64,000 bases of DNA from Corynebacterium genitalium ATCC 33030 (lineage in GTDB: Bacteria; Actinomycetota; Actinomycetes; Mycobacteriales; Mycobacteriaceae): assembly GCF_000143825.1 (NCBI RefSeq), contig NZ_CM000961.1, forward strand, positions 1,509,448 through 1,573,447, in the 5' to 3' direction. A model generated the notes under the pieces. That model had not been told where the DNA came from and did no database searches. It saw only the letters and a program-made list of their open reading frames with translations. The position numbers and the translations under genes are program-made. Below are positions 1,911 to 59,416 of this stretch, piece by piece (position 1 is the stretch's first letter; each line of letters starts with the position of its first letter).

Positions 1911-1921
1911 CGTCGATAAGC
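1911..1921 (-). repeat. intergenic copy of the GCTTATCGACG word
   Basis: The plus strand reads CGTCGATAAGC here, upstream of the DUF3046 gene and outside any convincing gene. This copy and the one at 59306 show that the word is not only a by-product of protein coding. Confidence 0.9.
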
Positions 1922-1949
1922 GAACGGCGGTGCGCGTATCCTTGGCCGC

Positions 1950-2165
1950 ATGCGCTTGACGGAATTCCAACAGCTAATCCACGACGAGTTCGGTGACGCG
2001 AAAGGCCAGTGGGTCGTGTCATCCCACGTCTTTCCCGGGGAGGGTAAGACGGCGGAGGAGCTGATCGAAAGTGGAGTCGATCCGCGCTACGTGTGGGAGG
2101 GGCTGTGCGAGGCGTTTGACGTGCCGGAAGAGCGCAGGTTGGGCGTGGATAAGCCAGGGGAGTGA
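1950..2165 (+). CDS. DUF3046 small protein
   Basis: 71-residue acidic protein beginning MRLTEFQQLIHDEFGDAKGQ and containing the family's WVVSSHVF and YVWEGLCEAFDVPEERR stretches. DUF3046 proteins are typically encoded just upstream of recA in actinobacteria, as here. No function is known and no enzyme motif is visible. The recA promoter region with two SOS-like boxes lies immediately downstream, so it is probably transcribed separately from recA. Confidence 0.88.
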   Translation: MRLTEFQQLIHDEFGDAKGQWVVSSHVFPGEGKTAEELIESGVDPRYVWEGLCEAFDVPEERRLGVDKPGE

Positions 2166-2184
2166 CGCGACGGAAACTTTCTTT

Positions 2185-2200
2185 TCGAACATTCGTGCGT
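2185..2200 (+). promoter_or_regulatory. putative LexA (SOS) box upstream of recA
   Basis: TCGAACATTCGTGCGT matches 11 of the 14 fixed positions of the actinobacterial SOS box TCGAACANNTGTTCGA, with a perfect left arm and a degenerate right arm. It lies about 160 bp before the recA start. Inference from pattern only. Confidence 0.7.
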
Positions 2201-2206
2201 GTATAT

Positions 2207-2222
2207 TCGAAACAATGTCCGT
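2207..2222 (+). promoter_or_regulatory. second, weaker LexA-like box upstream of recA
   Basis: TCGAAACAATGTCCGT matches about 11 of 14 fixed SOS-box positions if A or C is allowed at position 6. It starts exactly 22 bp after the first box, close to two helical turns, so two LexA dimers could bind the same face. Confidence 0.45.
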
Positions 2223-2357
2223 TGCCAAAGTAGATTGAGTTTCTGACAACGGGGAACCGGAAACGGGTCTTCGGCGGTCTAACGAAATATGCAGACCGTA
2301 ACCGACCCAGATAACAGCACAGACAGCACAGTTATTAGCGAAAGGACTGACCACGCG

Positions 2358-3479
2358 ATGGCGACGAAGAAGAAGGCAAGCAACACAGGCAACGACCGCC
2401 AAAACGCGCTCGACGCGGCGATGGCCATGATCGAGAAGGACTTCGGCAAGGGCGCCATTATGCGCCTGGGCGACGATAACCGCCCGCCGATCCAGGCGAT
2501 TTCCTCCGGCAACACTGCCGTCGACGTGGCGCTGGGCATTGGCGGGTGGCCACGCGGCCGCATTGTCGAGATCTACGGCCCGGAGTCGTCCGGTAAGACC
2601 ACGGTGGCGCTGCACGCCATCGCAGAAGCTCAGCGCGCTGGCGGCATCGCAGCGTTCATCGACGCGGAGCACGCGCTGGACCCGGAGTACGCCAAGAAGC
2701 TCGGCGTGGACACCGACAACTTGCTGGTTTCCCAGCCGGACACCGGTGAGCAGGCGCTGGAGATTGCGGACATGCTGGTGCGTTCCGGCGCGATCGACAT
2801 GATCGTCATCGACTCCGTCGCCGCCCTGACCCCGAAGGCTGAGATCGAAGGCGAAATGGGCGACAGCCACGTCGGCCTCCAGGCCCGCTTGATGTCCCAG
2901 GCGCTGCGCAAGATGACGGGTGCGCTGTACAACTCCGGCACCACCGCCATCTTCATTAACCAGCTGCGTGAGAAGATTGGCGTCATGTTCGGCTCGCCGG
3001 AGACCACCACCGGTGGTAAGGCCCTGAAGTTCTACGCGTCCGTGCGGTGCGATGTCCGCCGCATCCAGACGCTCAAGGACGGACAGGACTCGATCGGTAA
3101 CCGCACGCGCCTGAAGATCGTGAAGAACAAGGTTTCCCCGCCGTTCAAGGTCGCCGAGTTCGACATCATGTACGGCGAAGGCATCTCGCGCGAGTCGTCG
3201 ATCATCGACATGGGTGTGGACAACGGGATCATCAAGAAGTCCGGTTCGTGGTTCACCTACGAGGGCGATCAGCTGGGCCAGGGCAAGGAAAAGGCGCGCA
3301 TTTTCTTGAAGGAGAACCCGGAGCTGGCGAATGAGTTGGAGCGCAAGATCTTCGAGAAGCTCGGGGTGGGCGAGTTCGCCGGTCAGGACCAGCTGTCCGA
3401 CGACCCGGTGGACATGGTGCCCAACATCGACTTCGACGACGATGAAGCCGACGAGCTCGCCGGCGCCGCTCAAGAGTAG
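2358..3479 (+). CDS. recA: RecA recombinase
   Basis: DNA strand exchange protein and co-protease that triggers LexA self-cleavage. The 373-residue product has Walker [10 protein letters not shown] near residue 70, the Walker B region [12 protein letters not shown], and the acidic C-terminal tail ([14 protein letters not shown]). The length is normal and there is no intein. The ATG at 2358 is preferred, preceded by AAAGGA and giving MATKKKASN; an upstream in-frame ATG at 2289 would add 23 atypical residues. The stop codon overlaps the recX GTG by one base, so the two are co-translated. Two SOS-like boxes upstream imply LexA control. Confidence 0.98.
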
Positions 3480-4090
3480 TGCCGGACTATCCCGCGCCTG
3501 ACCCGGAGAAGCTGCGCAAGCTGCAGGAAGCGCTCGACGAGTATGCGGCGGGCCAACACGCCCCGCTTATCGACGAAGCCCACGAGAAGGAAACCTCGCG
3601 CATCCGCGAGAAAGCACTGCGGTTGTTGGACCAGCGCTCCCGCTCGCGCCACGAGCTGCGCGAGCGGCTGGTGGGCACGGGGCCAGAGCCGCAGTTCGAG
3701 CCGGACCTCATCGACGAGGTGCTGGGCGCCTTAGAGTCGAGCGGGCTTATCGACGACGCATCCTTCGCCCACGAATGGGTCCGCCAGCGCGCTACTGCCC
3801 GGGGCAAGTCCGCTCGCGCCCTTGACCTCGAGCTGCGGAACAAGGGCGTTGCCGAGCCGCTGCGTGCCGAAGCGCTCGCGCAGATCACAGCCGAGGATGA
3901 GGAAGCTCAAGCGCGGGTAGTCGCGGAAAAGAAAGTCCGCGAAGTGAAGGCGCCGCCGGAAGACCGCGCCGAGTACGACAAGGTGCTCCGCCGCGTCGTC
4001 GGCGTGTTGGCTCGTCGTGGGTATAACTCGGAGCTGACCATGCGCGTTGCGCGGGAAACGCTCGACGCGCGCATCGCTGAGGTGGGCTGA
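3479..4090 (+). CDS. recX: RecX, regulator of RecA
   Basis: Small helical protein that binds RecA filaments and limits their activity. The 203 residues show the tandem three-helix RecX repeats: RIREKALRLLDQRSRSRHELRERL, then LESSGLIDDASFAHEWVRQR, then a third repeat ending RRVVGVLARRGYNSELTM. It starts at a GTG whose first base is the last base of the recA stop codon. The gene carries two copies of the GCTTATCGACG word (3565 and 3745) within 180 bp, the closest pair in the window, both reading L-I-D. Confidence 0.95.
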   Translation: MPDYPAPDPEKLRKLQEALDEYAAGQHAPLIDEAHEKETSRIREKALRLLDQRSRSRHELRERLVGTGPEPQFEPDLIDEVLGALESSGLIDDASFAHEWVRQRATARGKSARALDLELRNKGVAEPLRAEALAQITAEDEEAQARVVAEKKVREVKAPPEDRAEYDKVLRRVVGVLARRGYNSELTMRVARETLDARIAEVG

Positions 4091-4091
4091 G

Positions 4092-4139
4092 CCCGGGCGA
4101 CGATGGCAGCGCTAGTTCAGGAAGGACATGTCGCCCGGG
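4092..4139. terminator. inverted repeat between convergent recX and the gluB-like gene
   Basis: CCCGGGCGAC at 4092-4101 pairs with GTCGCCCGGG at 4130-4139, a 10-bp perfect stem with a 28-base loop. The right arm lies inside the last codons of the lipoprotein gene. No T-run follows; a bidirectional terminator is possible but unproven. Confidence 0.4.
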
Positions 4140-4966
4140 GTGTCCGCCTGCACGGCGGCATCGGAGGCGAGGTGCTCGTCGACGAAGCGGTCGAAGGAAC
4201 CGTCGTCGTGCATTTTCTCCAGCGCCTCATTGACGGCTGAGACGCTGGCATCATTGTCGCGGGGGAGGCCGAGGCCGTAGTGCTCGTCGTTAAGCGGTGC
4301 GCCATCGCGCTCCAATGGGACGAGCTGGAACACCCCTGGCTCGTGCGCGGAGAACCCGGAGAGAATCGCCGCGTCGGTGGACAGGGCGTCGACCGCCCCG
4401 GCGCGCAGAGCGTCGAGGCACGCGGTGTAGCTGTCGTATTCGGCAAGGACCACGCCCGGAATGTCCTCGCGCAGTGTTTTCGCGGCCGTCGTGCCGGTGA
4501 CAAAGCACAGGTTCTTGCCGTCGAGCGACTCCAGCCCCGTGATGTCAGACCCGTCCACCGTGAGTAGCGCCTGGTGGGTCAGCAGGTACGGCCCAGCGAA
4601 AGAAACTTCTTTAGTGCGCTTGGCGTCGATGGAATAGTTCGAGGCGACCATGTCCACGTACCCGTTGTCCAGCAGTGACGCACGTTGGCCGGGCGGGGTC
4701 TCGCGCCATTCGATCTCGGGGTGGTCCCACCCGTTGTCGTCGGCGATCGAGTTGATCACGTAGGTGGCGATGTCGATGTCGAGGCCGGCGGGGGAGCCGT
4801 CGTCACGCATCATGCTCAGACCGGGATTTGTGAACGCGGAGCCCACATCGACGCGGCCGGATTCGATCTGGGCCAGAAGATCCTGATCATCCGGCGAACC
4901 GCACGCACTGAGTCCACTGACTCCGAGAACCGAGACGAGCGCGGCAGCAAGGTGGATCGAGCGCAT
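4112..4966 (-). CDS. glutamate-type ABC substrate-binding lipoprotein (GluB-like), orphan
   Basis: 284 residues with a lipoprotein signal ending LSAC and a family 3 solute-binding fold: [51 protein letters not shown] and [19 protein letters not shown]. This matches glutamate/polar amino acid receptors. In C. glutamicum gluB sits at this position, next to recX, inside gluABCD. Here the neighbours are recX and miaB and no ATPase or permease gene is present, so the receptor must use a transporter encoded elsewhere, act as a sensor, or be a remnant. The reading frame is intact. Confidence 0.85.
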
Positions 4967-5022
4967 GGGACCAACGTTACGCGGTTAGGACTCTCTCGGT
5001 GCGCGGAATACACTGTGTCACC

Positions 5023-6585
5023 GTGACACTAGCGACGAGCACTGCAAACGGAACCAGCCAGCACCCCCGCACCTACGAGGTGCGCACGTTCGGCTGCCAG
5101 ATGAACGTGCACGATTCCGAGCGGCTGTCCGGCCTGCTGGAAGACGCTGGATACGTCGCGGCGACTGACGACGACGCCGACCTGATCGTCTTCAACACCT
5201 GCGCCGTCCGCGAAAACGCTGACAAGCGCCTTTACGGCACGCTGGGTGCGCTGCGCGACAAGAAGCGGCACCACCCGGGCATGCAGATCGCGGTCGGCGG
5301 CTGCCTCGCGCAGAAGGACCGCGACACGGTGGTGGAGAAGGCGCCGTGGGTTGACGCGGTGTTTGGCACGCACAACATGTCGGCGTTGCCGGCACTGCTT
5401 GACCGCGCCCGTGTTGAGGAGGAGGCGCAGGTCGAGGTCGTCGAATCCCTCGAAGTTTTCCCGTCGGTGCTGCCGGCGAAGCGAGAGTCCTCCTACGCCG
5501 GCTGGGTGAGCGTGTCGGTGGGGTGCAACAACACGTGCACGTTCTGCATCGTGCCGTCGTTGCGCGGCAAGGAACAGGACCGCCGCCCGGGCGACATCCT
5601 CGCTGAAGTGCAGGCGCTCGTGGACCAGGGTGTGTCCGAGGTGACTCTCCTGGGCCAGAACGTCAACGCGTACGGCGTGAACTTCGTCGACCCGGACATG
5701 CCGCGCGACCGCTCGGCGTTTTCGAAGCTCCCGCGCGCGTGCGGCGAGATCGAGGGCCTGGAGCGGCTGCGCTTCACCTCCCCGCACCCGGCGGAATTCA
5801 CCTCCGATGTCATCGACGCAATGGCCGAGACACCGAACATCTGCCCGCAGCTGCACATGCCTTTGCAATCCGGGTCCGACAAGGTGCTCAAGGATATGCG
5901 CCGATCGTACCGTTCGAAGAAGTTCCTCGGCATTCTCGACGAGGTCCGCGCGAAGCTGCCGCACGCGTCCATCACCACGGACATCATCGTGGGTTTCCCG
6001 GGTGAGACGGAGGAGGATTTCCAAGCGACGCTCAACGTCGTCGAAAAGGCGCGGTTTACGTCTGCGTACACGTTCCAGTACTCGCCGCGCCCCGGCACGC
6101 CCGCCGCGGAAATGGACGGCCAGGTTCCCAAAGAGGTCGTCCAGGAGCGTTTCGAGCGCCTGCTCGCCCTGCAGGAGCGGATCAGTTACGAAGAGAACCT
6201 GAAGCTCATCGGCACCTCCCAGGAGCTGCTCGTCCAGGAGACGAACGAGAAGAAGGCGGACCGCGCGCAGAGCACGCGGCTGTCCGGGCGCGCACGTGAC
6301 GGACGGTTGGTGCACTTCGACGCCGGTTCGCTTATCGACGCCGTCCGCCCCGGCGACATCGTCCACGTCACCATCACCGATGCCCGTCCCTTCTACCTCA
6401 TCGCGGATTCGGGCGTTACGGCGCACCGCCGCACGCTGGCCGGCGACAACTCCGAAGCCGGCCAGGTGCCTACGACCGCGCCTGTCGGGGTGGGGTTAGG
6501 CATGCCGAAGATCGGTGCGCCGGTAGCTGCGCCCGCTGCAGCTGGCGCGGCCGGCGCGGGCGGGGCATGCGGGAGCTGCGGATAG
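5023..6585 (+). CDS. miaB: MiaB, tRNA-2-methylthio-N6-dimethylallyladenosine synthase
   Basis: Radical-SAM methylthiotransferase that adds the 2-methylthio group to i6A37 of tRNA. Domains in order: an N-terminal UPF0004 domain with its three cysteines ([21 protein letters not shown]), the radical-SAM motif CNNTCTFC near residue 175, and a TRAM domain near residues 370-430. The GTG at 5023 (520 aa) is preferred; an upstream GTG at 4999 is possible. A long Ala/Gly tail ends GGACGSCG, beyond the usual MiaB end. The substrate i6A is made by MiaA, encoded at 14.7 kb. The downstream membrane gene is seven bases away. Confidence 0.97.
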
Positions 6586-9819: not shown

Positions 9820-11394
9820 CTACCTGTGCTGCGTCTTCACAGGCAGTCGGAACTCGTCGGGTGAGGCGTGGCGCCAGGCTTCGGACCATTGAGAGGGGGC
9901 GTCGTCAAGCAATTGCCCGGGCTCGAGCCAGTCGAACAGTGCCTCGTAGGAAAGCGTGACACCTGGCTCGATGACTTTGCGCAGCATCGCTGGGGTGAGG
10001 TCGTCCGGGTGGGATGCGCCGCACGCCGCCATCATGGTGGTGGCTTGGCGCACGGTAGCCTGCTGGAAACGCTGCACGCGTTGGGCTTTGAGGTCGACGT
10101 CGATGGCGCGCTGGCGCCAGTTGCTCTGGGTGGCCACGCCGGAGGGGCACTTGCCGGTCTGGCACTTCTGGGCTTGGATGCAGCCGACGGCCATCATCAT
10201 TGCGCGGGCGGAGTTGGTGTAGTCAGCGCCCTGGATGAGGCGCTTCACAATGTCATTCGACGCCGCCACCTTGCCGGATGCCCCGAGCTTGACCTTGTCG
10301 CGCAGGTTCGTGCCGACGAGCGCATTGTGCATCATCTGCAAGCCCTCGGTCAGCGGGAGCCCCATGTGGTCCTCGAACTCGAGCGGGGCGGCGGCGGTAC
10401 CGCCTTCCGCGCCATCGATAGTGATGAAGTCTGGCGCGGTCCCCACCTGCTCAATTGCTTTGCAGATTGACAGCACGTCGATCATGGAGCCGACGCACAT
10501 CTTGAAGCCGATCGGCTTGCCGCCGGAGACCTCCCGGATGTGGGCGATGAACTCGATCAGCTCGACCGGGGTAGAAAAGACACGGTGGCGGCTGGGGGAG
10601 AGGCAGTCCTCGCCGACGGGGATGTCGCGCACGCGGGCGATCTCCTCGGTCACTTTCGGGCCGGGCAGCATGCCGCCGAGGCCGGGTTTGGCACCCTGCG
10701 ACAGCTTCAGCTCGATCATCTTCACCTGGTCGATCTGCGCGATGTCCTTGAACTTCGCCTCGTCGAAGCCGCCGTCTTCGGTGCGGCAGCCGAAGTAGCC
10801 GGTGCCCAGCTGCCACACGATGTCACCGTTGTTCTCCAGGTGGTATTTGCTCAGGCCACCTTCGCCGGTGTTATGGGCGAATCCGCCGAGCTCAGCACCC
10901 TTGTTCAGCGCGCGGATGGCATTGGCGGACAGTGCGCCGAAGGACATGCCAGAGATGTTCATCAGCGCCATGTCGTATGGTTGCGAGCACTCCGCACCAC
11001 CGATGTTCACCCGCGGCGGGTCCTCCGGCACCTCCGCCGGGACCACCGAGTGCACAAGGTACTCATAACCCGCCTGCGACACTTCCCTCTCGGTGCCGAA
11101 GGACCGTTCCCCATCGGTGCCGTCGGCGCGCTGGTTGATCACTTCACGGGTTTGCGCGTCGAACGGTTTGCCGTCGGCTTCGCCCTCGATGAAGTACTGA
11201 TGGATCTCCGGGCGGATCTCCTTTGCCAGGTAGCGCGCGTGCCCCAGCACAGGGTAATTGCGCAGAATGTTGTTTTTCGGCTGGATCAAATCGTTCGCAG
11301 CAAGGCCCGCGGCCGCGGCCGCCACAGCGCCAGCCACTGTTTTGCCCGGGTTGCTGCCTACAAGTTTGCTTATCGACGAAAATCGCTTACCCAC
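9820..11394 (-). CDS. FMN-binding glutamate-synthase-like protein
   Basis: 524 residues with one N-terminal membrane-anchor-like segment (residues 15-35), then the FMN-binding barrel of the glutamate synthase large subunit: MSFGALSANAIRALNKGAELGG, GEGGLSKYH, PKVTEEIARVRDIPVGEDCLSP, ITIDGAEGGTAAAP, and the iron-sulfur-type cysteines CIQAQKCQTGKCPSGVATQ near residues 405-425. It lacks the glutamine amidotransferase domain, so it is not a full GltB; members of this family are usually annotated as glutamate synthase-related. It starts at GTG 11394 after GAAGGTGAT. The physiological reaction is unknown. Confidence 0.85.
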   Translation of the reverse strand: MGKRFSSISKLVGSNPGKTVAGAVAAAAAGLAANDLIQPKNNILRNYPVLGHARYLAKEIRPEIHQYFIEGEADGKPFDAQTREVINQRADGTDGERSFGTEREVSQAGYEYLVHSVVPAEVPEDPPRVNIGGAECSQPYDMALMNISGMSFGALSANAIRALNKGAELGGFAHNTGEGGLSKYHLENNGDIVWQLGTGYFGCRTEDGGFDEAKFKDIAQIDQVKMIELKLSQGAKPGLGGMLPGPKVTEEIARVRDIPVGEDCLSPSRHRVFSTPVELIEFIAHIREVSGGKPIGFKMCVGSMIDVLSICKAIEQVGTAPDFITIDGAEGGTAAAPLEFEDHMGLPLTEGLQMMHNALVGTNLRDKVKLGASGKVAASNDIVKRLIQGADYTNSARAMMMAVGCIQAQKCQTGKCPSGVATQSNWRQRAIDVDLKAQRVQRFQQATVRQATTMMAACGASHPDDLTPAMLRKVIEPGVTLSYEALFDWLEPGQLLDDAPSQWSEAWRHASPDEFRLPVKTQHR

Positions 11395-11495: not shown

Positions 11496-11595
11496 TGCGG
11501 AAAAGTTGACAGACCCGATCCGCGCTTTGAAAGTTCGTGCAGGTCAGAGGGCTGAGGGTGGGTAAACAAGAATCCAGTTTGTCAACTTTTCCGCA
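11496..11595. repeat. pair of exact 16-bp inverted repeats flanking a 68-bp spacer
   Basis: TGCGGAAAAGTTGACA at 11496-11511 and its exact reverse complement at 11580-11595. The right copy includes the last codons and stop of the GNAT gene. The spacer is too long and the 3' side too poor in T for a simple terminator. The left copy may be a duplicated and inverted gene end, or the pair may be a binding site. Confidence 0.75.
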
Positions 11596-12655
11596 CGTGC
11601 TTCTGCCACGCGGTCGCATACGAGATGATTTCGGGCGACAACGGCCGGAGAAGCCGTGCAGCAGGTTCGCTCTCGGCGGGGTAGGAGGCATACGCTGTCT
11701 CGACCTTCGGCCATTCAGTCTTCGCGGCGGCGAGGAGATTTTCAAGCATCCGCTTTGCGGCGCCCTGGCCCCGATACTCGGGAAGCACGTAGATGAGCCC
11801 GAGCTCCATGAGTCGGTCGTCGTCGACATCGTAGTGGACGGCTTCTGCCATCCCGATCACTTTGCCATCAGGGGCGTGGGCGACCGCGGTGAGTTGGGTC
11901 CCGCCCCGGTCCATCAAGCGGGCGCTCGCGTCACGGAGACGCTGCTCAGTCCAATTGATCGAGTCGAGGATGAGGTCACCGCGCGGATAATCCCGCGAAG
12001 AACCGGACAACAATGCCCGCAGCGATGGTAGGTCATCAGGGTTGAAGCCCATGTTGCGGACAACGGAGATGCCCGGGCCTGCTGCCTCCGCCGCAACCGC
12101 GCCCAGCGAGAACGTCGCCTGCGCCTCGTGGTACGCAGCTGAATATCCGTGACTGGTGAGACTCAGTTCGGGTTCAACTAGAGGCTCGCCCGAGTGCGTG
12201 ACCCACACTTGCCGGATGGGGCGGTCGAAGGAGGCGGAAAGGGCGTCGATAAGCGAAAGGGCGGCGACCCACGGCTCACGCGGAACGGGCTCTCCGGACC
12301 CGGGGACGGGCGCGACGGCGGCGTCGAGAGTGACGGTCGCTTCGATCACGCGTGTGTCCTCGAGTAGGGGCAGGGAGATGAAGACCCACGCGGCGATGTC
12401 GGCGAGATCGTCGACATGCACCTCCGGATATCCGAGCGGGCCGAGCGGACGCGGTGCCTGCAGGTCAGTTAGCGCGAACAAAAAAGCCTCGGACTCCGCG
12501 GAGCCCTCGAGGCGCTTCGCCATGTGGGCGGCGCTCACGCCGGAGTAGGGGCTGCCGGTGATGTCCTGGATGGCGAGGGTCGCTGAGAACACATACGCGC
12601 CCACGACGTCGCCGGAGTCGCGGCCGCCGTGGGCGTAGATGAGGGGAGTGAGCAA
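11582..12655 (-). CDS. GNAT-family N-acetyltransferase
   Basis: 357 residues. The C-terminal half (about 245-330) carries a GNAT acetyl-CoA fold with motif A, LGLIYVLPEYRGQGAAKRML. The N-terminal half is a degenerate GNAT-like or unrelated domain, as in double-GNAT proteins of actinobacteria. The acetylated substrate is unknown. It starts one base after the DUF349 gene stop, so the two are co-transcribed. It carries a copy of the GCTTATCGACG word at 12244 reading L-I-D. Confidence 0.8.
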   Translation of the reverse strand: MLTPLIYAHGGRDSGDVVGAYVFSATLAIQDITGSPYSGVSAAHMAKRLEGSAESEAFLFALTDLQAPRPLGPLGYPEVHVDDLADIAAWVFISLPLLEDTRVIEATVTLDAAVAPVPGSGEPVPREPWVAALSLIDALSASFDRPIRQVWVTHSGEPLVEPELSLTSHGYSAAYHEAQATFSLGAVAAEAAGPGISVVRNMGFNPDDLPSLRALLSGSSRDYPRGDLILDSINWTEQRLRDASARLMDRGGTQLTAVAHAPDGKVIGMAEAVHYDVDDDRLMELGLIYVLPEYRGQGAAKRMLENLLAAAKTEWPKVETAYASYPAESEPAARLLRPLSPEIISYATAWQKHVRKS

Positions 12656-14039: not shown

Positions 14040-14162
14040 AGTGGGCCGTCCTTTCATCCTGTGCCGCGCGTCGCGGCTGCCGTTATGCCCCAAAACAATA
14101 CCGCGACGGGGAGCGCAATGTAACGGTTCGGCTCACACGGACTCTTCTATAGGGTGAGGTTC

Positions 14163-14738
14163 ATGCGCGGTTTCAATCTGCTTGTCGTTCCGGGGTCCCC
14201 AGCGGTAGTCGCTGAGCTGTCTCCGCAGGATGCGGCGGGGCGCGCGATCGTAGCCAAAGCTCGCGAGCTGACCGAGGGAGATACCCGCCCGGTTGAGATC
14301 GTCGGTTCGCGCGATCCGCGGTGGCGCACCGAGCACACTGGCAGCTTCCGCGCATGGGGTGCTGATGTGCACGTCGGAGGCGGCAACTACCTGCCGGAAC
14401 TCATCGCACGCTACATCCTGCCGGGCCGCACCATTGGGGATTCCCGCGAGCACATCCAGCCGCTCAACCCCGACGCGCTCACCGTGGTGGTCGTCGATGG
14501 CTCCGCCGGACTCACTCCCCGCGCACCCCTTGCGCTTATCGACGGCGCCACCGACACCCACGACGCCATGACCGCCTTCCTTGACGGCACCGGTGAACTC
14601 CCCACCGATCTGCCCGGAGTGATAGAGCCGGGGTTGTGGGAAGAGTTGGGGGAACTGGAAGCGTCGAAAAGCGTGCTTCTAAGCGATGACACACTCGGCG
14701 TCGGGCGCTTCCTTGCGGCGTGGGAGGTTCACGCATGA
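14163..14738 (+). CDS. conserved protein upstream of miaA (Rv2728c-like)
   Basis: 191 residues beginning [19 protein letters not shown]. It resembles the alanine-rich protein encoded before miaA in mycobacteria and looks like a class III extradiol dioxygenase-like (LigB/MEMO) fold with motifs [21 protein letters not shown] and [22 protein letters not shown], but the metal ligands are not obvious. Its stop overlaps the miaA start (ATGA), so the two are translationally coupled. It carries the GCTTATCGACG word at 14534. Function unknown. Confidence 0.75.
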
Positions 14739-29826: not shown

Positions 29827-29901
29827 AATCAACGGCTGATCTTACCCGCGCAGCAGGTAAAGGTAGAAGCTACTGAGAGTGAACAACCTGAGCGAACGGG
29901 A

Positions 29902-41339: not shown

Positions 41340-41603
41340 ATGATGGGGAGCGTGACGCACATGAGCCAGACCACCACGAAGACGATCGAACGCCCCGACG
41401 TCCGGGAAGACACGTCGCAGGACAACGACACCCCGAAGTTCTTCCACTACGTCAAAAAAGACCAGATCGTGCACTCCGCTGTCAGCGGTGACATGGTGGT
41501 TGCCCTGTGCGGCGAGACGTTCCCTGTGCGCAAGCAAGCGAAGCCCGGCTCACCCGTGTGCCCGGATTGCGAGAGGATCTACAAGGGGCTGCGTCGGCGG
41601 TGA
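41340..41603 (+). CDS. DUF3039 protein
   Basis: 87 residues with a likely zinc-binding pattern: HSAVSGDMVVALCGETFPV and CPDCERIYKGLRRR, with conserved His and Cys pairs. The family is actinobacterial and of unknown function. The stop overlaps the GTG of the next helicase gene, so they are coupled. Confidence 0.8.
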   Translation: MMGSVTHMSQTTTKTIERPDVREDTSQDNDTPKFFHYVKKDQIVHSAVSGDMVVALCGETFPVRKQAKPGSPVCPDCERIYKGLRRR

Positions 41604-46642: not shown

Positions 46643-46700
46643 ACCCGCCGATTCTACGCACTTCCGCACCCCGCGCGGACGCTGGCTACTTTGAGGCACG

Positions 46701-47579
46701 ATGGCAAGCATGAGTACCGCAGATTTGCTTGTCGACGAGCTTCTCGACGTCGCCCTTTCCACCTGCTTGCTGGCCGCAGGTCACGTCCGCGATAGGCGGG
46801 CCGAACTGATCGGTGAAGGCGCATTGACCGCGGCGGAGACAAAATCCTCGGCAGTGGACCCGGTCACTGTCGTAGATAAAGAGTCGGAGCAGTTGATCAT
46901 GTCCACTCTTCTCGAGCGTCGACCAGACGACGGCATTCTGGGGGAAGAAGGCGCCGACGTTCCGTCTCGTTCCGGAGTGCGGTGGATCGTCGACCCGATT
47001 GATGGCACGGTGAACTTTCTCTATGGGGTCCCGCAGTATGCGGTGTCGATCGCAGCCGCGCGCGGGGAGGAACTGCTTGCTGGAGCGGTAGTCAATGTTG
47101 CTACTGGCCGCGCCTATCAGGCAGGTAGAGGTCGCGGGGCCTTCACGCGTGGGGGAGGGGAAGAGGAATGGCGGCGGTTGGGTGTGTCGTCGATAAGCGA
47201 TGTGCCTCTCGCGCTTGTGGCCACCGGTTTCTCCTACACGCCACAGTGGCGCGCCCAGCAAGCGGACATTCTGCGCGCGGTATTGCCGCGTGTGCGCGAC
47301 ATCCGCCGCGCCGGCAGTGCTGCTTTAGACTTGTGCATGCTTGCAGACGGCGTAGTGGATGCCTACTACGAGCACGCCACCCACCCGTGGGACTACGCCG
47401 CCGGAGCCGTGATTGCCACCGAGGCTGGCGCACAGGTTGAGCATCCTGGCCTGGGTGCCAGCGGCCATGACGGGGCGGTGACAATGGCATCCGCTCCGGG
47501 GATTTGGAATAACTTCCGCGCCCTCCTTGCGGAAGCGGGGGCAGATCAGCCCCTGAAACCATTCTCTGACCAGGTCTGA
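46701..47579 (+). CDS. suhB: SuhB-type inositol monophosphatase family protein
   Basis: 292 residues with the two metal-binding motifs of the family, GEEGADVPSRSGVRWIVDPIDGTVNFLYGVP near residues 80-115 and HPWDYAAGAVIATEAGAQVEHP near residues 232-255. It hydrolyses inositol-1-phosphate or related sugar phosphates and supplies inositol for phosphatidylinositol and mycothiol (family knowledge). It is divergent from ppgK, with a 58-bp spacer. The repeated word is at 47188. A second ATG at 46710 is possible. Confidence 0.92.
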   Translation: MASMSTADLLVDELLDVALSTCLLAAGHVRDRRAELIGEGALTAAETKSSAVDPVTVVDKESEQLIMSTLLERRPDDGILGEEGADVPSRSGVRWIVDPIDGTVNFLYGVPQYAVSIAAARGEELLAGAVVNVATGRAYQAGRGRGAFTRGGGEEEWRRLGVSSISDVPLALVATGFSYTPQWRAQQADILRAVLPRVRDIRRAGSAALDLCMLADGVVDAYYEHATHPWDYAAGAVIATEAGAQVEHPGLGASGHDGAVTMASAPGIWNNFRALLAEAGADQPLKPFSDQV

Positions 47580-49175: not shown

Positions 49176-50099
49176 ATGGCACTGTGGCCCTTCGGCAAGA
49201 AAAAGAACAGCGACTCCGCTGAATATGGCAATTACCGCAGGCGGGAATGGGAAGACCCGTTTGTTTCTCGTCCCGCGGAGGCCCCCGCCACCCCCACGCG
49301 GCCCCGTGCATCTAGCGGGGACTTTCACGACGTGCAATACATGAACCCGGTGAAAGACAAGGGCAGCACAATCGTCCAGACCACGCCTGATCCCGAGCAG
49401 GTCAAAGAGGCCGAAGAGGCTGCCGTTGTCCAGCGTGAGCACGACGCCGTGAACGGGAAGACCGGCCCCTTTGATGGTGACAACGTTGACATCAACGACT
49501 TCGACTTCAGCGACTTCTCCGCAGGGTTGCTCAACCTCGGCTCGATCCAGTTAGCGCTTCCGAAGAACTCCCAGGTCCAGGTGGAGATGGGTGAGCAGGG
49601 CCCGCGCATGCTCCACGTCATCACCGAATTCGGCCGTGTCACCCCGGTGGCGTTCGCCGCACCGAACTCCGGCGGCATGTGGGAAGAGTCCTCCGATGAG
49701 ATCGCAGAGGGCATGCGCGCTGAAGGCATGCCGGTCGAATATGAAGAGGGCCCATGGGGCCGCGAAGTGGTCGGCACTGGCGACAACGGCATCATCCGCA
49801 TCATCGGTGTGCAAGGCCCGCGCTGGCTGTACCGCGTCACCCTCGCAGCGCCGCACGGTAAGGAAGACCGGTTGGCGGATCTCGGCCGCGAAATCATCGC
49901 TCGCTCCTTCATCTATCGCGGCAACACGCCCGTGCTGGCAGGCAACTCCCTGCCGGTCGAGTTGCCCGCACAGCTCGCTCTGCAAATCCAGCAAGCTATG
50001 CAGCAGCAACAGCTGCGGCAGCAGAACCAGCAGAACCAACAGAACCAACAGGGGCAGGGAGAGCAGACCGGCCAGCCTGACCAGCCCGAACAGCAGTAA
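49176..50099 (+). CDS. DUF3710 protein
   Basis: 307 residues. A polar N-terminal region (about 1-100) with Pro and acidic patches precedes a compact domain (about 105-255) with INDFDFSDFSAGLLNLGSIQLALP and GRVTPVAFAAPNSGGMWEE typical of DUF3710. The C-terminal 40 residues are almost pure Gln/Asn with some Pro. Function unknown; it always sits near dut in actinobacteria. One base separates it from the next gene. Confidence 0.85.
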   Translation: MALWPFGKKKNSDSAEYGNYRRREWEDPFVSRPAEAPATPTRPRASSGDFHDVQYMNPVKDKGSTIVQTTPDPEQVKEAEEAAVVQREHDAVNGKTGPFDGDNVDINDFDFSDFSAGLLNLGSIQLALPKNSQVQVEMGEQGPRMLHVITEFGRVTPVAFAAPNSGGMWEESSDEIAEGMRAEGMPVEYEEGPWGREVVGTGDNGIIRIIGVQGPRWLYRVTLAAPHGKEDRLADLGREIIARSFIYRGNTPVLAGNSLPVELPAQLALQIQQAMQQQQLRQQNQQNQQNQQGQGEQTGQPDQPEQQ

Positions 50100-50100
50100 T

Positions 50101-51351
50101 ATGGAGCTTACTTCTGGCGATCGCGTCAGGCTTGAACCCACCGCGATGGCGCACGGGGGCGAGGCAATTGCGCACGCCTCGGACGGTCGCGTGGTGTTCG
50201 TGGCAGGAGCACTTCCCGGTGATGTGGTGGAAGCCGAGCTGACCACTGTGAAGAAGCGGTGGGCTCGTGCCGCGCTCACCCAGGTAGTGGAACCGTCGCC
50301 TGACCGGACTGAGGTCGCCTGCCCAGCAGCGGCAGCTGGCGCAGGGTGCTGCGACTACTCCCACATCGATCCCGCCGCGCAAACGCGGTTCAAGCGCGAG
50401 ATCTTGGTCGGGCAGTTGGAAAAGCACGCCCGGCCCAGTGGTGTACTCGAGGGCTTTGACGCAGCGATCGACCTCGAAGAAGAATCGCTCGAACCGACCC
50501 TTGGGTGGCGCACCCGTGTCCGTCTTGGTGTCGATGAACAGGGGCGTGCTGGAATGCGCCGCGCACGCAGCCGCGAGATCGTTGCGGGGCAGCCGTGCTC
50601 CCAGGTGGTCCCGGAGGCCCTCGATGGAATCGTCGGCGGTGATGCCAGATTCACCCCCGGTGCTGAGCTCGTGGTGGTCGTTGACGGGGCAGGGCAGCGT
50701 CACGTCGTCGAAACGCGGCGGGCGCAACGCGGTAAACGTGTGGAGCACATTGATACGCGCATCGAGGGTGGCGATGCCGCGACCGAGATCGTTCCGGTCG
50801 CCGGGGAGGAATTCCATTTCAGCTTTCCCCCGACAGCGTTTTGGCAGGCACATCTCGCTGCTCCTGCGGCCTATTCGGCCTATATCCTTGATTGGGCTGC
50901 GGACGACTACGGTGAGCGCACAGGGTGGGATTTGTATGGCGGGGTGGGGTTGTTTGTGCCGTCGATAAGCGCTGCCATGGAGGGGGACCAGGCACCGCGC
51001 ATCGTCAGCGTCGACTACTCTCCCGCCGCGACGCGCACGCCGCAGCCCGCACTGAGCGCGTTCAACGTGGACATGCGCAACCAGAAAGTGGAAGCGGCGC
51101 TGGATGAGCTGCCGGACCCAGGGCTCGTGGTGCTCGATCCTCCGCGCACAGGGGCCGGGGAAAACGTCGTCGCCGGCATCGCTGCGCGCCGCCCGCAGCG
51201 CGTCATCCACGTCGGGTGCGATCCGGCGACATTCACGCGCGATCTGGCCACATGGGGCGCGGCAGGATACGTCGTCGAACGCATGGCGCTTATCGACGCT
51301 TTTCCCGCCACCCACCACTTCGAAGTCCTCACCAGCCTCGTTCCGGCCTGA
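50101..51351 (+). CDS. TrmA/RlmCD-type RNA (uracil-5-)-methyltransferase
   Basis: 416 residues from ATG 50101. Domains: an N-terminal TRAM (VRLEPTAMAHGGEAIAHASDGRVVFVAGALPGDVVEAE), a cysteine cluster for an iron-sulfur centre (VACPAAAAGAGCCDY), and the SAM domain with LYGGVGLF and the catalytic segment DPPRTGAGENVV, ending with the C-G-C-D type VGCDPATFTRDLATW. It methylates U in rRNA or tRNA. Copies of the repeated word lie at 50960 (reverse) and 51288 (forward), the only gene with two orientations. Confidence 0.9.
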   Translation: MELTSGDRVRLEPTAMAHGGEAIAHASDGRVVFVAGALPGDVVEAELTTVKKRWARAALTQVVEPSPDRTEVACPAAAAGAGCCDYSHIDPAAQTRFKREILVGQLEKHARPSGVLEGFDAAIDLEEESLEPTLGWRTRVRLGVDEQGRAGMRRARSREIVAGQPCSQVVPEALDGIVGGDARFTPGAELVVVVDGAGQRHVVETRRAQRGKRVEHIDTRIEGGDAATEIVPVAGEEFHFSFPPTAFWQAHLAAPAAYSAYILDWAADDYGERTGWDLYGGVGLFVPSISAAMEGDQAPRIVSVDYSPAATRTPQPALSAFNVDMRNQKVEAALDELPDPGLVVLDPPRTGAGENVVAGIAARRPQRVIHVGCDPATFTRDLATWGAAGYVVERMALIDAFPATHHFEVLTSLVPA

Positions 51352-51458: not shown

Positions 51459-53372
51459 GTGAGCAGGCTTGAGCACCTCACATCCCCGGCCGAACTGAAG
51501 GGCATGTCGGCGGACGAGCTCGAACGTCTCGCGCGGGAAATCCGCGAGTTTCTCATCCAGAAGGTCTCCGCCACCGGCGGCCACCTCGGACCGAACTTGG
51601 GGGTCGTCGAGCTGACGGTCGCCCTGCACGCCGTCTTTGACTCGCCGAGCGACCCTATCATCTTCGACACGTCCCACCAGTCCTACGTGCACAAGATCCT
51701 CACGGGGCGTTCCGGGCAGTTCGACACACTGCGCAAAAAGGATGGATTGTCCGGGTACACCAGCCGCAGCGAGTCCGATCATGACTGGACCGAGTCCTCC
51801 CACGCTTCCGCGGCGTTGTCCTACGCGGACGGGTTGTCAAAGGCGAAGGTGCTTCAGGGCCACGCCGACAGCAATGTTGTCGCAGTGGTGGGTGATGGTG
51901 CTCTGACCGGCGGAATGTGCTGGGAAGCGCTGAATAACATCGCTGAAGGGGAGCGCAACGTCACCATCGTGGTGAACGACAACGGCCGGTCCTACTCACC
52001 GACCATCGGCGGGTTCGCCCGCAACCTGGACAATCTCCGTTCCCAGATCGCCTCCATCCGGATTCAGCCTGGTTACGACGAAGTGATGGAGCAGGGAAAG
52101 CGCACCTTGAAGTCCATGGGCTGGGTCGGCGAGCGCGCATTCGGCGCTATGAAGATGGTGAAGGATGGCATCAAGCACCAGGTGGTGCCGACGCAGATGT
52201 TCCAAGATTTGGGTCTGAAATACGTCGGCCCGATCGAAGGACACGACATTCCGTCGCTGCTGAGCGCATTTACCTATGCGCACCAGTACGACGGACCGCT
52301 GATCATTCACGTTGCAACTGAGAAGGGCCACGGTTTCGCCCCGGCGGTCAACGATATTGCCGACCAGATGCACTCCACCGGTGTCATTGACCCCGTCACT
52401 GGCGAGGCGCTGGGGGAAGCGCGTCCGGGGTGGACATCGGTGTTCTCCGAGGAGCTGCTCCGCGCCGGGCACGAGCGCGAAGACATCGTGGCACTCACCG
52501 CAGCGATGGCGGGCCCAACGGGGTTGACACCGTTCGCGGAGAAGTTCCCCTCGCGGTTCTTCGATGTGGGCATCGCTGAGCAACACGCTGTGACGTCGGC
52601 GGCGGGCATGGCTCTCGGCGGGTTGCACCCGGTGGTGGCGGTCTACTCGACGTTCCTCAACCGCGCTTTTGACCAGTTGCTCATGGACGTAGCCCTGATC
52701 AATCAGCCGGTGACGTTCGTGCTCGACCGAGCAGGCGTGACCGGCAGCGACGGCGCGAGCCACAACGGTGTCTGGGACATGGCCTTGACCTCCATTGTTC
52801 CGGGTATTCGTGTCGCCGCCCCGCGCGATGCTGACCGTTTGCGCGAAGAGTTCCAAGAAGCCATCGCTGTGGAGACCGGCCCGACCGTCGTCCGCTTCCC
52901 GAAGGGCGACGTGGGGGACCCGGTCACGGAACTTCGCCGCACGGACGGTGGGAGCGACATTCTCGTCGAGCCCGCTGGAGACGCCGACGAGGACATCCCC
53001 GAGGTGCTTCTCGTCGCAATCGGTGAGTTCAGCAAGAACGCAGTTCAGGTTGCACGCGAGCTGAATGACGACGGTGCCCGCATCACCGTCGTTGACCCCC
53101 GGTGGATCATTCCGATCAACCCTGAGCTGATCGACATGGCAGCCGAAGCGGACCTGGTGGTCGTGTACGAAGACGGTGTTGTTCGCGGAGGCATCGGCTC
53201 GGCACTGTCTGAGGCGCTGTCCGCTGCCGAAGTGGACACCCCGCTGCGACGCCTGGCCTTCCCGGATATCTTCCCGCCGCACGCGTCGCGCTCCGAGTTG
53301 CTTGCCGAGGTTGGACTCGACGCCGATTCCGCCCGCGAATCCATCCGCGAGTGGATTGAAGGGCTGGCCTAA
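51459..53372 (+). CDS. dxs: Dxs, 1-deoxy-D-xylulose-5-phosphate synthase
   Basis: Thiamine-diphosphate enzyme that condenses pyruvate and glyceraldehyde 3-phosphate, the first step of the MEP isoprenoid pathway. The 637-residue product has the ThDP-binding motif [16 protein letters not shown] near residue 150, the transketolase pyrimidine domain ([19 protein letters not shown]) and the C-terminal domain ([18 protein letters not shown]). The GTG at 51459 gives SRLEHLTSP. The stop overlaps the convergent rnd stop (CTAA). Confidence 0.97.
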
Positions 53373-54553
53373 ACTTCTTCGCCTGGCCTGTTCGCGGCGA
53401 ACAGATCCGCTGTGTTTGCGACCTGCCATGGACGTGCCCCCTGCTCGGCCAGAAGGCCGGCGACAGCGTGTGTGTCCCATGAGACCGTGCCCTGGGAAAG
53501 TGCCCAGGCGGTTTCCCGGAGAACTGCCGGGGTTAGCAGCACTTCGGCAGGCAGGTCCATGTCATCAGCGGCCTCTGCGATGGCGGAACGCATCGTTTGC
53601 AGGTAGTCCCACGACTCCGGGTGGTGGCGCTGCCAGGCAGACTTCCCGGGTGTGCCCTCATTGTTGCGCGGTTTGTCCGGCCACGTGGCGGGATCAGATT
53701 GATATACCCCGCGCAGGACCCGGAACCACTTGTGGCTCGCGCCTGTGCGGCGGGCAGGGAAGCCCTTCATGGCCGCGAGATCGGCGGGGGAGCGCGGTTG
53801 TTCTTTCGCTATCGCGATGATCAGTTTGGACGGCAGGATGTGGGAGGGGGAGATGTCGCGTCGTAAAGCATCGGCGTTGCGCTGCTCCCACACTGCACGA
53901 GCGATGGCACGGGAGAGGGCAGAGGGAAGGTTGTTCACGCCTTTGAGCCCTTCCCATGTCAGCGTGGGGGCAGTCCACTCCGCGAACGTGTCCACGATGT
54001 GCGCGAATTCTTGCTCCGCATAGTCCAGCTTGCCCAGCCCACCCAGCAACTCCGCCTGAGCCTCTGCCAGATCGGGCAGGTAAATCACGTCGAGGGCGGC
54101 GTAGTCCAGCCACTCCCGCGGAAGGGTTGGAAGCGACCAGTCTTCGCGGCCATGGCCCTTCTCCAGCTCGACTCCGCAGAACTCGGCGACCATGGCGGCG
54201 AGGTTCGGTTTCTCGAAGCCGGCAATGCGGCCAGCGAGAGCAGTGTCGAAGAGTGTTCCGGGATGCAGACCGAGCTCAGCGAGACTCGGCAGGTCCTCAG
54301 GGGCGGCGTGAATGATCCAGTCTTCGCCGTTCACAGCAGGCGCGAGGGCGGACGTCAGTTCTTCGCGTAGGCCCTCTGGTTGGAAGAGGAACGTTCCTGC
54401 GCCGCGGCGGTGAATCTGGATGAGAAAGGCGCGGTCGTCGTAGCGGTACGCAGACGCTCGCTCCGTATCCACGGCGAAAGGTCCGTGCCCTGCGGCGAGT
54501 TGTTTCGCAGCGCGCGCGAACCCGTCGGGGGTGTGAACGAGTTCGTAGTGCAT
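53369..54553 (-). CDS. rnd: Rnd-type ribonuclease D
   Basis: 394 residues. The N-terminal 3'-5' exonuclease domain has the DEDDy motifs, [22 protein letters not shown] (Asp-x-Glu), [17 protein letters not shown] and [14 protein letters not shown] (Asp...Tyr-Ala-Ala-x-Asp). The C-terminal half carries an HRDC domain ([23 protein letters not shown]). It trims tRNA 3' ends. It lies in an operon with the upstream DUF3000 gene, 18 bases apart. Confidence 0.93.
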
Positions 54554-57660: not shown

Positions 57661-58374
57661 CTACACGCGGCGATAGCGCGCGAAGAGGAACGACCCGTCC
57701 GTTTGCACCTGCTCCAACTCGAGATTCACGGTGAAATCGCCCTGCAAACCGGCGGGTTCGCCGTTGGTGCGGGGGTCGATGGTGAGATGGAGGACGTCGA
57801 TAAGCGAATGCGCGAACATGTCCGCATACAGCGAGGGGCCGCCTTCACAAATGATTCGCCCGTACCCCAGCTCCCGCAGCTTTTCGACGATCTCACCCGC
57901 ACCCCCTTCCCCCGTGGACACCAAAGAGCAACCCGCGCGGGTCAGAGCCTGGCGGCGGTCGGCGAGCGCGGTGTCTGTCAGCGACGCCTCTGGCGTGAGA
58001 ATGAGCGGGGGAGCCCCGCCGAACAGTATCGCGGAGGTGTCGAAGTTGAGTGAGCGCGACACCACCGCTATCGGAGTGTCCGCCGGGCCGTAATCCTCCG
58101 CTTTGACCGTGCCGGAGCCGACCAGGATGACATCCGCCCACTCACGTAGGGCGGCCAGGACCTGTGAGTCCGTGTCATTGCCCAGCTCCTCGGAGGTTCC
58201 ACCAGCCGTGAACGAGCCGAAAACCGTGGTGACCGCGACAGCGCGGATTTCTTCGCGGGCGCTTGTCGGGCCGATGATCATGTCGAGCATGAGGCCGATC
58301 GTAGTGGGGTGGGCGCTGGGGGGCAGCTGATCGTCTATGCCGATGTCTTGGCGCGCTTTTGTTGTTACATCCAT
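57661..58374 (-). CDS. RibD C-terminal-domain (pyrimidine) reductase
   Basis: 237 residues with the dihydrofolate-reductase-like fold of RibD-C proteins: GLMLDMIIGPTSAREEIRAV, DVILVGSGTVKAEDYGP, IICEGGPSLYADMF near residue 175 and IDPRTNGEPAGL. It lacks a deaminase domain, so it is not a complete RibD. Role in riboflavin-like or F420-linked reductions is uncertain. It heads the operon with aftC and msrB. The repeated word is at 57795. Confidence 0.85.
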   Translation of the reverse strand: MDVTTKARQDIGIDDQLPPSAHPTTIGLMLDMIIGPTSAREEIRAVAVTTVFGSFTAGGTSEELGNDTDSQVLAALREWADVILVGSGTVKAEDYGPADTPIAVVSRSLNFDTSAILFGGAPPLILTPEASLTDTALADRRQALTRAGCSLVSTGEGGAGEIVEKLRELGYGRIICEGGPSLYADMFAHSLIDVLHLTIDPRTNGEPAGLQGDFTVNLELEQVQTDGSFLFARYRRV

Positions 58375-58559: not shown

Positions 58560-58635
58560 TGGAGCGGATGACGAGACTCGAACTCGCGGCCCTCACCTTG
58601 GCAAGGTGATGCGCTACCAACTGCGCTACATCCGC
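58560..58635 (-). tRNA. tRNA-Gly(GCC), copy 1
   Basis: Acceptor GCGGATG/CATCCGC, anticodon GCC in the loop TTGCCAA, discriminator T and encoded CCA. It differs from the other two Gly copies by one base next to the variable loop (C for T). Confidence 0.95.
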
Positions 58636-58680
58636 GTTGTGCAAACTACAGTTTGCACAACGGAGCCCTTAACGGACTCC

Positions 58681-58755
58681 TGGTGCGCGATACTGGGATT
58701 GAACCAGTGACCTCTTCCGTGTCAGGGAAGCGCTCTCCCGCTGAGCTAAACGCGC
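58681..58755 (-). tRNA. tRNA-Val(GAC), copy 1
   Basis: Anticodon GAC in the loop CTGACAC; CCA encoded. The 5' acceptor reads GCGCGTT against ATCGCGC, so position 6 is a T-T mismatch; copy 2 has GCGCGAT and pairs fully. Confidence 0.93.
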
Positions 58756-58773
58756 GCAATATTCAAATGAATA

Positions 58774-58847
58774 TGGAGGTGGAAACGGGAATCGAACCCG
58801 TGTACAAGGTTTTGCAGACCTTTGCCTCACCACTCGGCCATTCCACC
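58774..58847 (-). tRNA. tRNA-Cys(GCA)
   Basis: Acceptor GGTGGAA/TTCCACC, discriminator T, CCA encoded, anticodon GCA in the loop CTGCAAA. Confidence 0.95.
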
Positions 58848-58897
58848 GTGGGCGATTTCCGCCTCTTTCACAGTACCAATTGCTGCCAATTGGGACT

Positions 58898-58973
58898 TGG
58901 AGCGGATGACGAGACTCGAACTCGCGACCCTCACCTTGGCAAGGTGATGCGCTACCAACTGCGCTACATCCGC
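58898..58973 (-). tRNA. tRNA-Gly(GCC), copy 2
   Basis: Same sequence as copy 3 and one base different from copy 1; CCA encoded. Confidence 0.95.
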
Positions 58974-58994
58974 AAAAGGGTCAGAGACCCTTCG

Positions 58995-59066
58995 TGCGCG
59001 ATACTGGGATTGAACCAGTGACCTCTTCCGTGTCAGGGAAGCGCTCTCCCGCTGAGCTAATCGCGC
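58995..59066 (-). tRNA. tRNA-Val(GAC), copy 2
   Basis: Anticodon GAC, fully paired acceptor stem. The 3' sequence after the discriminator A is CGA, so the CCA end is not encoded, unlike copy 1. Confidence 0.93.
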
Positions 59067-59092
59067 TAACGATAAGCCCCCGTGAGGGGACT

Positions 59093-59168
59093 TGGAGCGG
59101 ATGACGAGACTCGAACTCGCGACCCTCACCTTGGCAAGGTGATGCGCTACCAACTGCGCTACATCCGC
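59093..59168 (-). tRNA. tRNA-Gly(GCC), copy 3
   Basis: First gene of the minus-strand tRNA operon Gly-Val-Gly-Cys-Val-Gly; CCA encoded. Confidence 0.95.
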
Positions 59169-59416
59169 ACTCACTGCGCCCAGATGAACTGTGTTGAACT
59201 CTGTTCATCTGAACTAGTGCGACTCAAAACTTTAATGTGTCGTCGTGGCCTAAGCCAAATCGCCACCATGTTACTTACATTTGCGGTGGTCACTGTCGCG
59301 CGCATGCTTATCGACGGCTCCACCCCACCCTTGAAGGTCCCGCGATTATGGTCTTTTGGCAACCTGGTGTTAATGTATCTCTCGCGCTAAGTACAGCATC
59401 GCTTGATCGCTTGCGA
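59169..59416. promoter_or_regulatory. divergent spacer between the tRNA cluster and tRNA-Val(CAC)
   Basis: No gene is seen. It holds an inverted repeat CAGATGAAC/GTTCATCTG (59181-59189 and 59203-59211) next to the tRNA operon start, and an intergenic copy of the GCTTATCGACG word at 59306. Promoters for both directions should lie here. Confidence 0.5.
59306..59316 (+). repeat. intergenic copy of the GCTTATCGACG word
   Basis: Second non-coding copy of the dispersed word, in the tRNA spacer. Confidence 0.9.

Follow-up and report, generated by a model that had tools for sequence, protein, structure and literature searches.

What is the function of a 12-bp word that recurs on both strands, inside and outside genes, across a bacterial chromosome? 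The question is raised by a 64,000-nucleotide stretch of Corynebacterium genitalium ATCC 33030 (the window; NZ_CM000961.1, positions 1,509,448 to 1,573,447), in which an earlier note had pointed out the word CGCTTATCGACG and proposed a DNA uptake sequence, a Chi-like recombination signal or a binding site of a nucleoid or condensin protein. The follow-up analysis revealed a word that is selected at the DNA level, strand-neutral and spread genome-wide, and that exists in largely mutually exclusive dialects differing by a single base. Its full form is GCTT-NN-CGACG accompanied by a C-rich tract of about 35 bp, and the patterns in the sequence make it quite probable that this element is an uptake sequence tagging self DNA, with dialects by species.

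The repeat described in the earlier note was fully reproduced. The underlying 11-mer occurs 20 times in the window, 12 times on the forward and 8 times on the reverse strand, compared to a shuffle expectation of 0.02, and 16 of these copies extend to the 12-mer, for which shuffling predicts 0.00. Two of the 20 copies are intergenic and 18 lie inside predicted open reading frames (ORFs), in sense and antisense orientation alike. When the window was measured against an order-4 Markov model, as had been suggested, the top over-represented 8- to 13-mers were parts of the word, the word itself or one-base extensions of it (lists restricted to words with at least six occurrences, both strands summed). 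In the complete source genome (labelled G000; one contig of 2,349,853 bases), 113 + 99 copies of the 12-mer were counted and none of the reversed pattern. The abundance is explained neither by a chance-level genomic count nor by one duplicated gene family.

Although the repeat is real, the exact 12-mer had to be rejected as the functional unit. Among 100 single mismatches to the 12-mer found in 464 kb of the genome, 88 affect position 1 or the two middle bases. The relaxed word GCTT-NN-CGACG occurs 269 times in the same 464 kb, compared to 1 to 30 copies of seven permuted words, and its two-nucleotide spacer is strict, with 9, 15 and 1 copies at spacer lengths of 1, 3 and 4. The repeated element is thus the bipartite word GCTTNNCGACG, present in 35 copies in the window and in 771 + 743 = 1,514 copies per 2.35 Mb genome-wide (reversed control, 89), and the 12-mer is merely its commonest spelling. 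The central AT is just a favoured pair and probably reflects coding, because the usual reading frame, CTT-NNC-GAC, specifies Leu-x-Asp.

The nine fixed bases are accompanied by a directional compositional bias. In the source genome, the 35 bases 3' of an intact word are C-rich and G-poor, with a (C-G)/(C+G) value of 0.346, compared to 0.020 upstream of the word and 0.028 in the 25 bases beyond these 35. Among the controls, values were 0.048 for permuted words (112 copies) and -0.006 for words with wrong spacers (32 copies); words with one changed core base gave 0.130 (304 copies). The tract is equally present at sense, antisense and intergenic copies. In small samples from other species, it was also seen in the dialect-2 species sampled (see below) and in G009, G002, G010 and G013, was weak in G070, G056, G237, G054, G184 and G036 and was absent in G012. 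The variant GCGTNNCGACG, which starts with GCGT, is also frequent (84 copies in 624 kb of the source genome) and keeps part of the C-rich tract (0.25), so that position 3 of the word may tolerate G.

Counting in relatives, another check suggested at the outset, extended the finding to most of the genus. Two words were counted in 242 Corynebacterium species, and a word passed if it reached at least 150 copies and three times its control. GCTTNNCGACG, hereafter dialect 1, passes in 171 species with 195 to 1,964 copies (median 1,090). Dialect 2, GCTTNNCGATG (GCTT-NN-CGATG), passes in 25 species and is the larger of the two words in 18. Both pass in just eight species; dialect 1 predominates in seven of these and dialect 2 in the eighth (G024). 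In total, 188 species carry at least one of the two words. De novo searches in species lacking both main dialects revealed a clear third dialect in a single species, G012, where TTNNTGACGYCGCG (TT-NN-TGACGYCGCG) occurs 359 times with a control of 0; the runner-up for this word is G014, a dialect-1 species with 29 copies. Weaker words or none were found otherwise, apart from TCSGACGCCAC, which is enriched in 8 of 80 genomes examined (at least 45 copies and at least three times control). The three dialects have the skeleton TT-NN-(C/T)GA(C/T)G in common, and TCSGACGCCAC can be interpreted on the same skeleton. Near-palindromic and apparently unrelated words emerged in G206 and G021 from a gapped-word search; the repeats of G018 and most of those of G021 were discarded, as their redundant flanks identify them as repeated genes. 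Outside Corynebacterium, 185 genomes from 30 genera of the same family were counted; the highest ratio to control was about 2.6, so that no genome reached a ratio of three.

A comparison of aligned codons revealed that the dialects change in place. Named relatives were found through lepA; the 80 loci included 15 of Corynebacterium, whose identities were the highest and place the source genome in this genus. The dialect labels of the named species rest on 10 to 22 kb per species, three further species being left unlabelled. At two lepA sites, seven of the eight species labelled dialect 1 carry GCTTGTCGACG and seven of eight carry GCTTAACGACG. At the same spots, the two species labelled dialect 2 (C. 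phoceense, Corynebacterium sp. ACRPS) have GCTTGTCGATG and GCTTAACGATG with unchanged amino acids. The three species labelled as lacking the word show neither spelling; C. lubricantis has CTT-GTC-GAT after an A. On a larger scale, 206 dialect-1 sites of the source genome were searched against sampled relatives, namely 15 dialect-1 species (including G054, G014 and G202), nine dialect-2 species (including G028) and 12 species with neither, G012 being left out. Of 61 aligned positions in dialect-1 species, 28 show dialect 1 and one shows dialect 2. Of 37 in dialect-2 species, 13 (6 distinct sites) show dialect 2 and none shows dialect 1, and of 31 in species with neither, one shows dialect 1. 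These positions are not independent, because several species share one site. When the word is read in its usual frame, the switch amounts to a synonymous change from GAC to GAT.

The word is depleted in the mobile DNA that was sampled. Between 2.102 and 2.124 Mb of the source genome, 20 kb were sampled (2 kb in between were not) and contained no copy. This empty stretch encodes a phage-type DNA polymerase and shares one segment, at about 99% identity, with plasmids of C. tuberculostearicum and C. aurimucosum. The adjoining 20 kb from 2.082 to 2.102 Mb have 0 to 2 copies per 4 kb, compared to 2 to 5 per 4 kb in the 16 kb left of 2.082 Mb and 2 to 4 per 4 kb in the 24 kb right of 2.124 Mb. Two such plasmids (56,304 bases) carry no dialect-1 copy, where about 33 would correspond to the density of the source genome, and a single dialect-2 word; phage P1201 has one copy in 49,999 bases. 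In the region from about 2.082 to 2.124 Mb (loci L247 and L048), the polymerase gene lies near a plasmid-like segment with MFS and winged-helix genes, and the region can be described as prophage-like or as a composite mobile region.

Could such a word simply be a by-product of coding or composition that spells the common peptide Leu-x-Asp? In 624 kb of the source genome, with genes called by a simple codon score, 213 of 369 copies (57.7%) are indeed in the frame CTT-NNC-GAC. The remainder comprises 98 antisense copies, which together with the 31 intergenic ones speak against this explanation, 23 copies in the other two sense frames and 4 at gene edges; copies are under-represented in non-coding DNA, which holds 8.4% of the copies and 16.8% of the bases. 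The shuffling of synonymous codons, which were pooled and redealt among 516 called genes while the proteins were kept, also speaks against it: of 340 copies observed in called coding sequences, 28.7 are left (standard deviation 6.7, maximum 47 in 60 shuffles). The dialect-2 word shows no excess in the same test (9 observed, 11.3 expected). Moreover, where Leu-x-Asp is kept in the aligned orthologues, leucine is encoded by CTT in 32 of 40 cases in dialect-1 species, in 14 of 24 in dialect-2 species and in 2 of 24 where neither dialect is present. A coding by-product, already contradicted both by the shuffle and by this comparison of codons, has next to no chance of being correct, and the shuffle bears out the earlier proposal that selection acts on DNA rather than on protein. 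The high copy number would also be expected if a dispersed mobile element had left the copies behind as remnants or used them as insertion targets. This is highly improbable, as just nine core bases are fixed, the flanks are biased in composition and have no fixed sequence, and several species carry the word at matching positions in conserved codons.

The two remaining alternatives can be judged largely by strand and position, with origin, terminus and replichores placed by GC skew. Over the 171 dialect-1 genomes, forward and reverse copies number 91,999 and 92,100 and are uneven (p < 0.05) in three genomes. Leading- and lagging-strand copies number 193 and 176 in the 624-kb sample (p 0.40), 119 and 101 as well as 91 and 93 in relatives (GC skew of each stretch), and 100:92 to 105:87 for the 12-mers of the source genome under three placements of origin and terminus; the absence of a strong strand bias and of a polarity like that of FtsK-orienting polar sequences (KOPS), stated in the earlier note, was thus upheld. 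A Chi-like signal, a word that an exonuclease-helicase such as AdnAB or a RecBCD relative reads on one strand to promote recombination, would agree with the directional core and its one-sided C-rich tract, and Chi words differ between bacteria. This explanation is nevertheless very unlikely: there is no leading-strand excess, both main spellings are missing from 54 of the 242 species, and a nine-base word in two halves with a long tract is long for Chi. A binding site of a nucleoid, condensin or chromosome-segregation protein would be in keeping with the genome-wide spread and with adjacent copies pointing in opposite directions more often than chance, in 211 of 340 pairs in the source genome (p 1e-5) and 129 of 202 in dialect-1 relatives (p 1e-4). 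The corresponding numbers are 48 of 81 in the named dialect-1 loci and 227 of 428 for forty random words, and the alternation is not significant in dialect 2 (87 opposite and 73 same of 160, p 0.30); close inverted pairs are rare (4 opposite-facing pairs with starts less than 60 bp apart among 340, terminator structures not being searched). We consider such a site very unlikely, since there is no strand skew about origin and terminus, the 12-mers are present in all 150-kb bins up to 2.06 Mb, and the absence of the word from about a fifth of the genus is not what it predicts. Single-base dialect changes in place would also be easier to reconcile with a receptor and biased transfer than with a house-keeping protein.

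Of the three candidates originally offered, a DNA uptake sequence is therefore the best supported, because the dialects, the strand balance, the density and the depletion in the sampled mobile DNA fit it; a Chi-like signal is disfavoured and a nucleoid or condensin site fits worse. In the proposed mechanism, the word on extracellular DNA would be recognised by ComEA or by a minor pilin belonging to the Tad pilus. The pilus would pull this DNA through the mycolic-acid outer layer, and ComEA and ComEC would import one strand, which RecA would recombine. Copies would build up through biased gene transfer (molecular drive), as tagged alleles would be imported preferentially. A change of the receptor would then convert the dialect, in part through individual copies switching in their existing positions, and the alternating orientation of neighbours and the one-sided C-rich tract would reflect a directional pull on the DNA. 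It also appears likely, judging from the genomes compared, that this self-tagging originated independently in Corynebacterium, has at least three dialects and is read by the Tad/Flp pilus, and that most of the genus is transformable now or was so recently, with dialects acting as barriers.

The machinery for such a process is encoded in the genus. ComEC was found in 241 of 242 species, the exception being G185, whose genome is 90% complete. In the source genome, ComEC is directly preceded by ComEA, a protein with helix-hairpin-helix and SLBB domains. A Tad operon at about 0.42 Mb encodes TadA, two T2SSF proteins, a DUF4244 protein, which we take to be the Flp-type pilin, and TadE-like and TadG-like proteins, which were assigned by weak Pfam matches under curated cut-offs. 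Its first gene has no Pfam match and is presumably Ssd-like, from its position. The AlphaFold models of the TadE-like and TadG-like proteins (mean pLDDT, a per-residue confidence score, 89.9 and 91.1) begin with a long helix and continue into a three-stranded sheet, an arrangement resembling that of pilins, and a cysteine pair of the TadG-like protein is invariant in 16 sequences. Both proteins are candidates for the surface receptor of the word. A TadA-type ATPase is present in 80 of 80 genomes examined. The best TadA E-value is at most 1.6e-47 in 42 of 43 word-bearing and 9 of 37 other genomes, a split that is probably a clade effect, and a tree built from 20 TadA loci, with 9 of its 17 inner branches open, did not resolve the dialect switches. 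Given their near-universal occurrence, the presence of ComEC and that of a TadA-type ATPase were both rejected as discriminators of the word. Natural transformation of Micrococcus luteus, another actinobacterium, depends on Tad genes, and tad is described as often occurring together with comEA/comEC in Actinobacteria, according to an excerpt of the study (PMC4322843).

Several observations weigh against an uptake sequence. None of the papers listed by full-text literature searches, which did not extend to most subscription papers and bioRxiv, reports natural transformation in Corynebacterium. Neither main dialect passes in 54 of 242 species, and no gapped word above about z 11 was detected in 14 of 16 such species sampled (G012 excluded; 60 to 100 kb per species), a search in which G000, G106 and G012 gave z 20 to 28. 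ComEC and TadA also occur in word-less species, so that the machinery does not predict the word: all seven of the Tad proteins sought are encoded in G131 and G043, in which no word was found, and G185 carries dialect 2 with no ComEC match. In the three small Tad proteins, no residue clearly tracks the dialect when up to 20 aligned loci are compared by eye. The sample of mobile DNA is small, and the counts in the plasmids and the phage do not take the dialects of their hosts into account. Finally, a copy-free 20-kb stretch at about 1.049 to 1.069 Mb of the source genome (L249, L040) has normal GC content and ordinary metabolic genes, including a relative of dehydroquinate synthase, and not every gap is therefore mobile DNA. 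One tblastn search each with an ORF of L040 and the TadG-like protein gave no match to phages.

Within the window, the 35 copies of the bipartite word are distributed as follows (strand of the word in brackets; sense or antisense relative to the ORF named). The 12-mer copies of GCTTATCGACG comprise one intergenic copy at 1911-1921 (-) and sense copies at 3565-3575 (+, ORF 3479-4090), 6330-6340 (+, ORF 4999-6585), 12244-12254 (-, ORF 11582-12655), 14534-14544 (+, ORF 14154-14738), 23275-23285 (+, ORF 21821-23338), 27507-27517 (-, ORF 25885-29832), 35114-35124 (+, ORF 34782-35930), 40566-40576 (-, ORF 39304-40821), 50960-50970 (-, ORF 49996-51318) and 57795-57805 (-, ORF 57661-58374). Antisense 12-mer copies are located at 18407-18417 (+, ORF 17643-18731), 32725-32735 (+, ORF 30952-33594), 43131-43141 (-, ORF 41507-43360), 47188-47198 (-, ORF 46701-47579) and 51288-51298 (+, ORF 49996-51318). 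GCTTATCGACG outside the 12-mer is found in sense at 3745-3755 (+, ORF 3479-4090) and 15750-15760 (+, ORF 15649-16593), in antisense at 11368-11378 (+, ORF 9820-11394) and between tRNA genes at 59306-59316 (+, intergenic).

The remaining copies have other spellings. GCTTGACGACG lies in sense at 9900-9910 (-, ORF 9820-11394) and 30252-30262 (-, ORF 29902-30861) and in antisense at 40062-40072 (+, ORF 39304-40821); GCTTTTCGACG in antisense at 14662-14672 (-, ORF 14154-14738) and 57879-57889 (+, ORF 57661-58374) and in sense at 33441-33451 (-, ORF 30952-33594); and GCTTGTCGACG in sense at 21375-21385 (-, ORF 20953-21828) and 61786-61796 (-, ORF 61214-62677) and in antisense at 46727-46737 (+, ORF 45878-46762), where GCTTCTCGACG follows, likewise antisense, at 46739-46749 (+). 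Single sense copies are GCTTAACGACG at 4285-4295 (-, ORF 4112-4966), GCTTGCCGACG at 18101-18111 (-, ORF 17643-18731), GCTTCACGACG at 32659-32669 (-, ORF 30952-33594), GCTTCGCGACG at 42190-42200 (+, ORF 41507-43360) and GCTTTACGACG at 53859-53869 (-, ORF 53369-54553). Among the neighbouring genes, ORF 2289-3479 matches records annotated recA in BLAST searches, and the next one, ORF 3479-4090, which holds two copies of the word, is presumably recX, from its position. The intergenic copy at 59306-59316 lies within a cluster of seven tRNA genes at 58560-59489, namely three Gly(gcc), two Val(gac), Cys and, on the opposite strand, Val(cac).

Other over-represented words were encountered in relatives. 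G230 (L094, L095, L096, L162) shows an enrichment of a distinct word with partial palindromic symmetry, GAAATTTCGCCAC / GTGGCGAAATTTC, which may be a regulator site. The near-palindromic CTCGNCGAGG and its relatives are over-represented in samples of G206, G120 and G049.

If confirmed, the uptake sequence would represent an independent origin of such signals in a lineage with a different pilus and outer membrane, and natural competence would be predicted across Corynebacterium. The right dialect placed on donor DNA would provide a genetic tool, and DNA without the word could be recognised as acquired. How dialects and receptors evolve would become testable, because the codons show the switch site by site. 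Uptake sequences are described in Neisseriaceae and Pasteurellaceae in the available part of one article (PMC7811141). Among the papers listed by the same literature searches, titles and the beginnings of abstracts mention none in Actinobacteria and no such word in Corynebacterium, and other taxa with such sequences may exist.

How does the corynebacterial word compare to known systems? Chi sites and KOPS are directional over-represented words with a strand bias about origin and terminus, whereas the word described here has no such bias about the inferred origin and terminus. The DNA uptake sequences (DUS) of Neisseriaceae, for which the minor pilin ComP is the receptor, resemble it as short, high-copy words whose dialects have a common core; an excerpt of PMC3630211 adds that these dialects follow phylogeny, and DUS distribution has been used to find acquired islands, according to part of PMC7371117. 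Numbers given in an extract of PMC7811141 are 1,892 ten-base DUS in N. meningitidis and 1,465 nine-base cores in H. influenzae. The corynebacterial word differs from DUS in its unrelated sequence, its two halves with a free two-nucleotide spacer, its one-sided C-rich tract, its actinobacterial host, a Tad/Flp pilus instead of the Neisseria pilus, and its placement mostly within genes with under-representation in non-coding DNA. DUS have a conserved CTG core, as quoted from PMC3630211, whereas the fixed bases of GCTTNNCGACG contain neither CTG nor CAG. Inverted pairs at terminators are frequent in Neisseria, in contrast to 4 close pairs among 340 here, counted with terminators not searched. The uptake signal sequences (USS) of Pasteurellaceae, for which the accessible part of PMC12616744 predicts a type IV minor pilin as receptor, likewise have a core of nine bases, which is present about 1,465 times in H. 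influenzae, and compositionally biased flanks (PMC7811141, in extract); their core is unrelated, however, and the flanks are AT tracts rather than an excess of C over G on one strand. The uptake sequences of both families are thus matched in density, word size and strand balance, in the biased flanks, in dialects built on a common core and in the rarity of the word in the mobile DNA sampled. By analogy, the word would work like an uptake sequence with no descent from either family, because its sequence, host, pilus type and gene placement differ.

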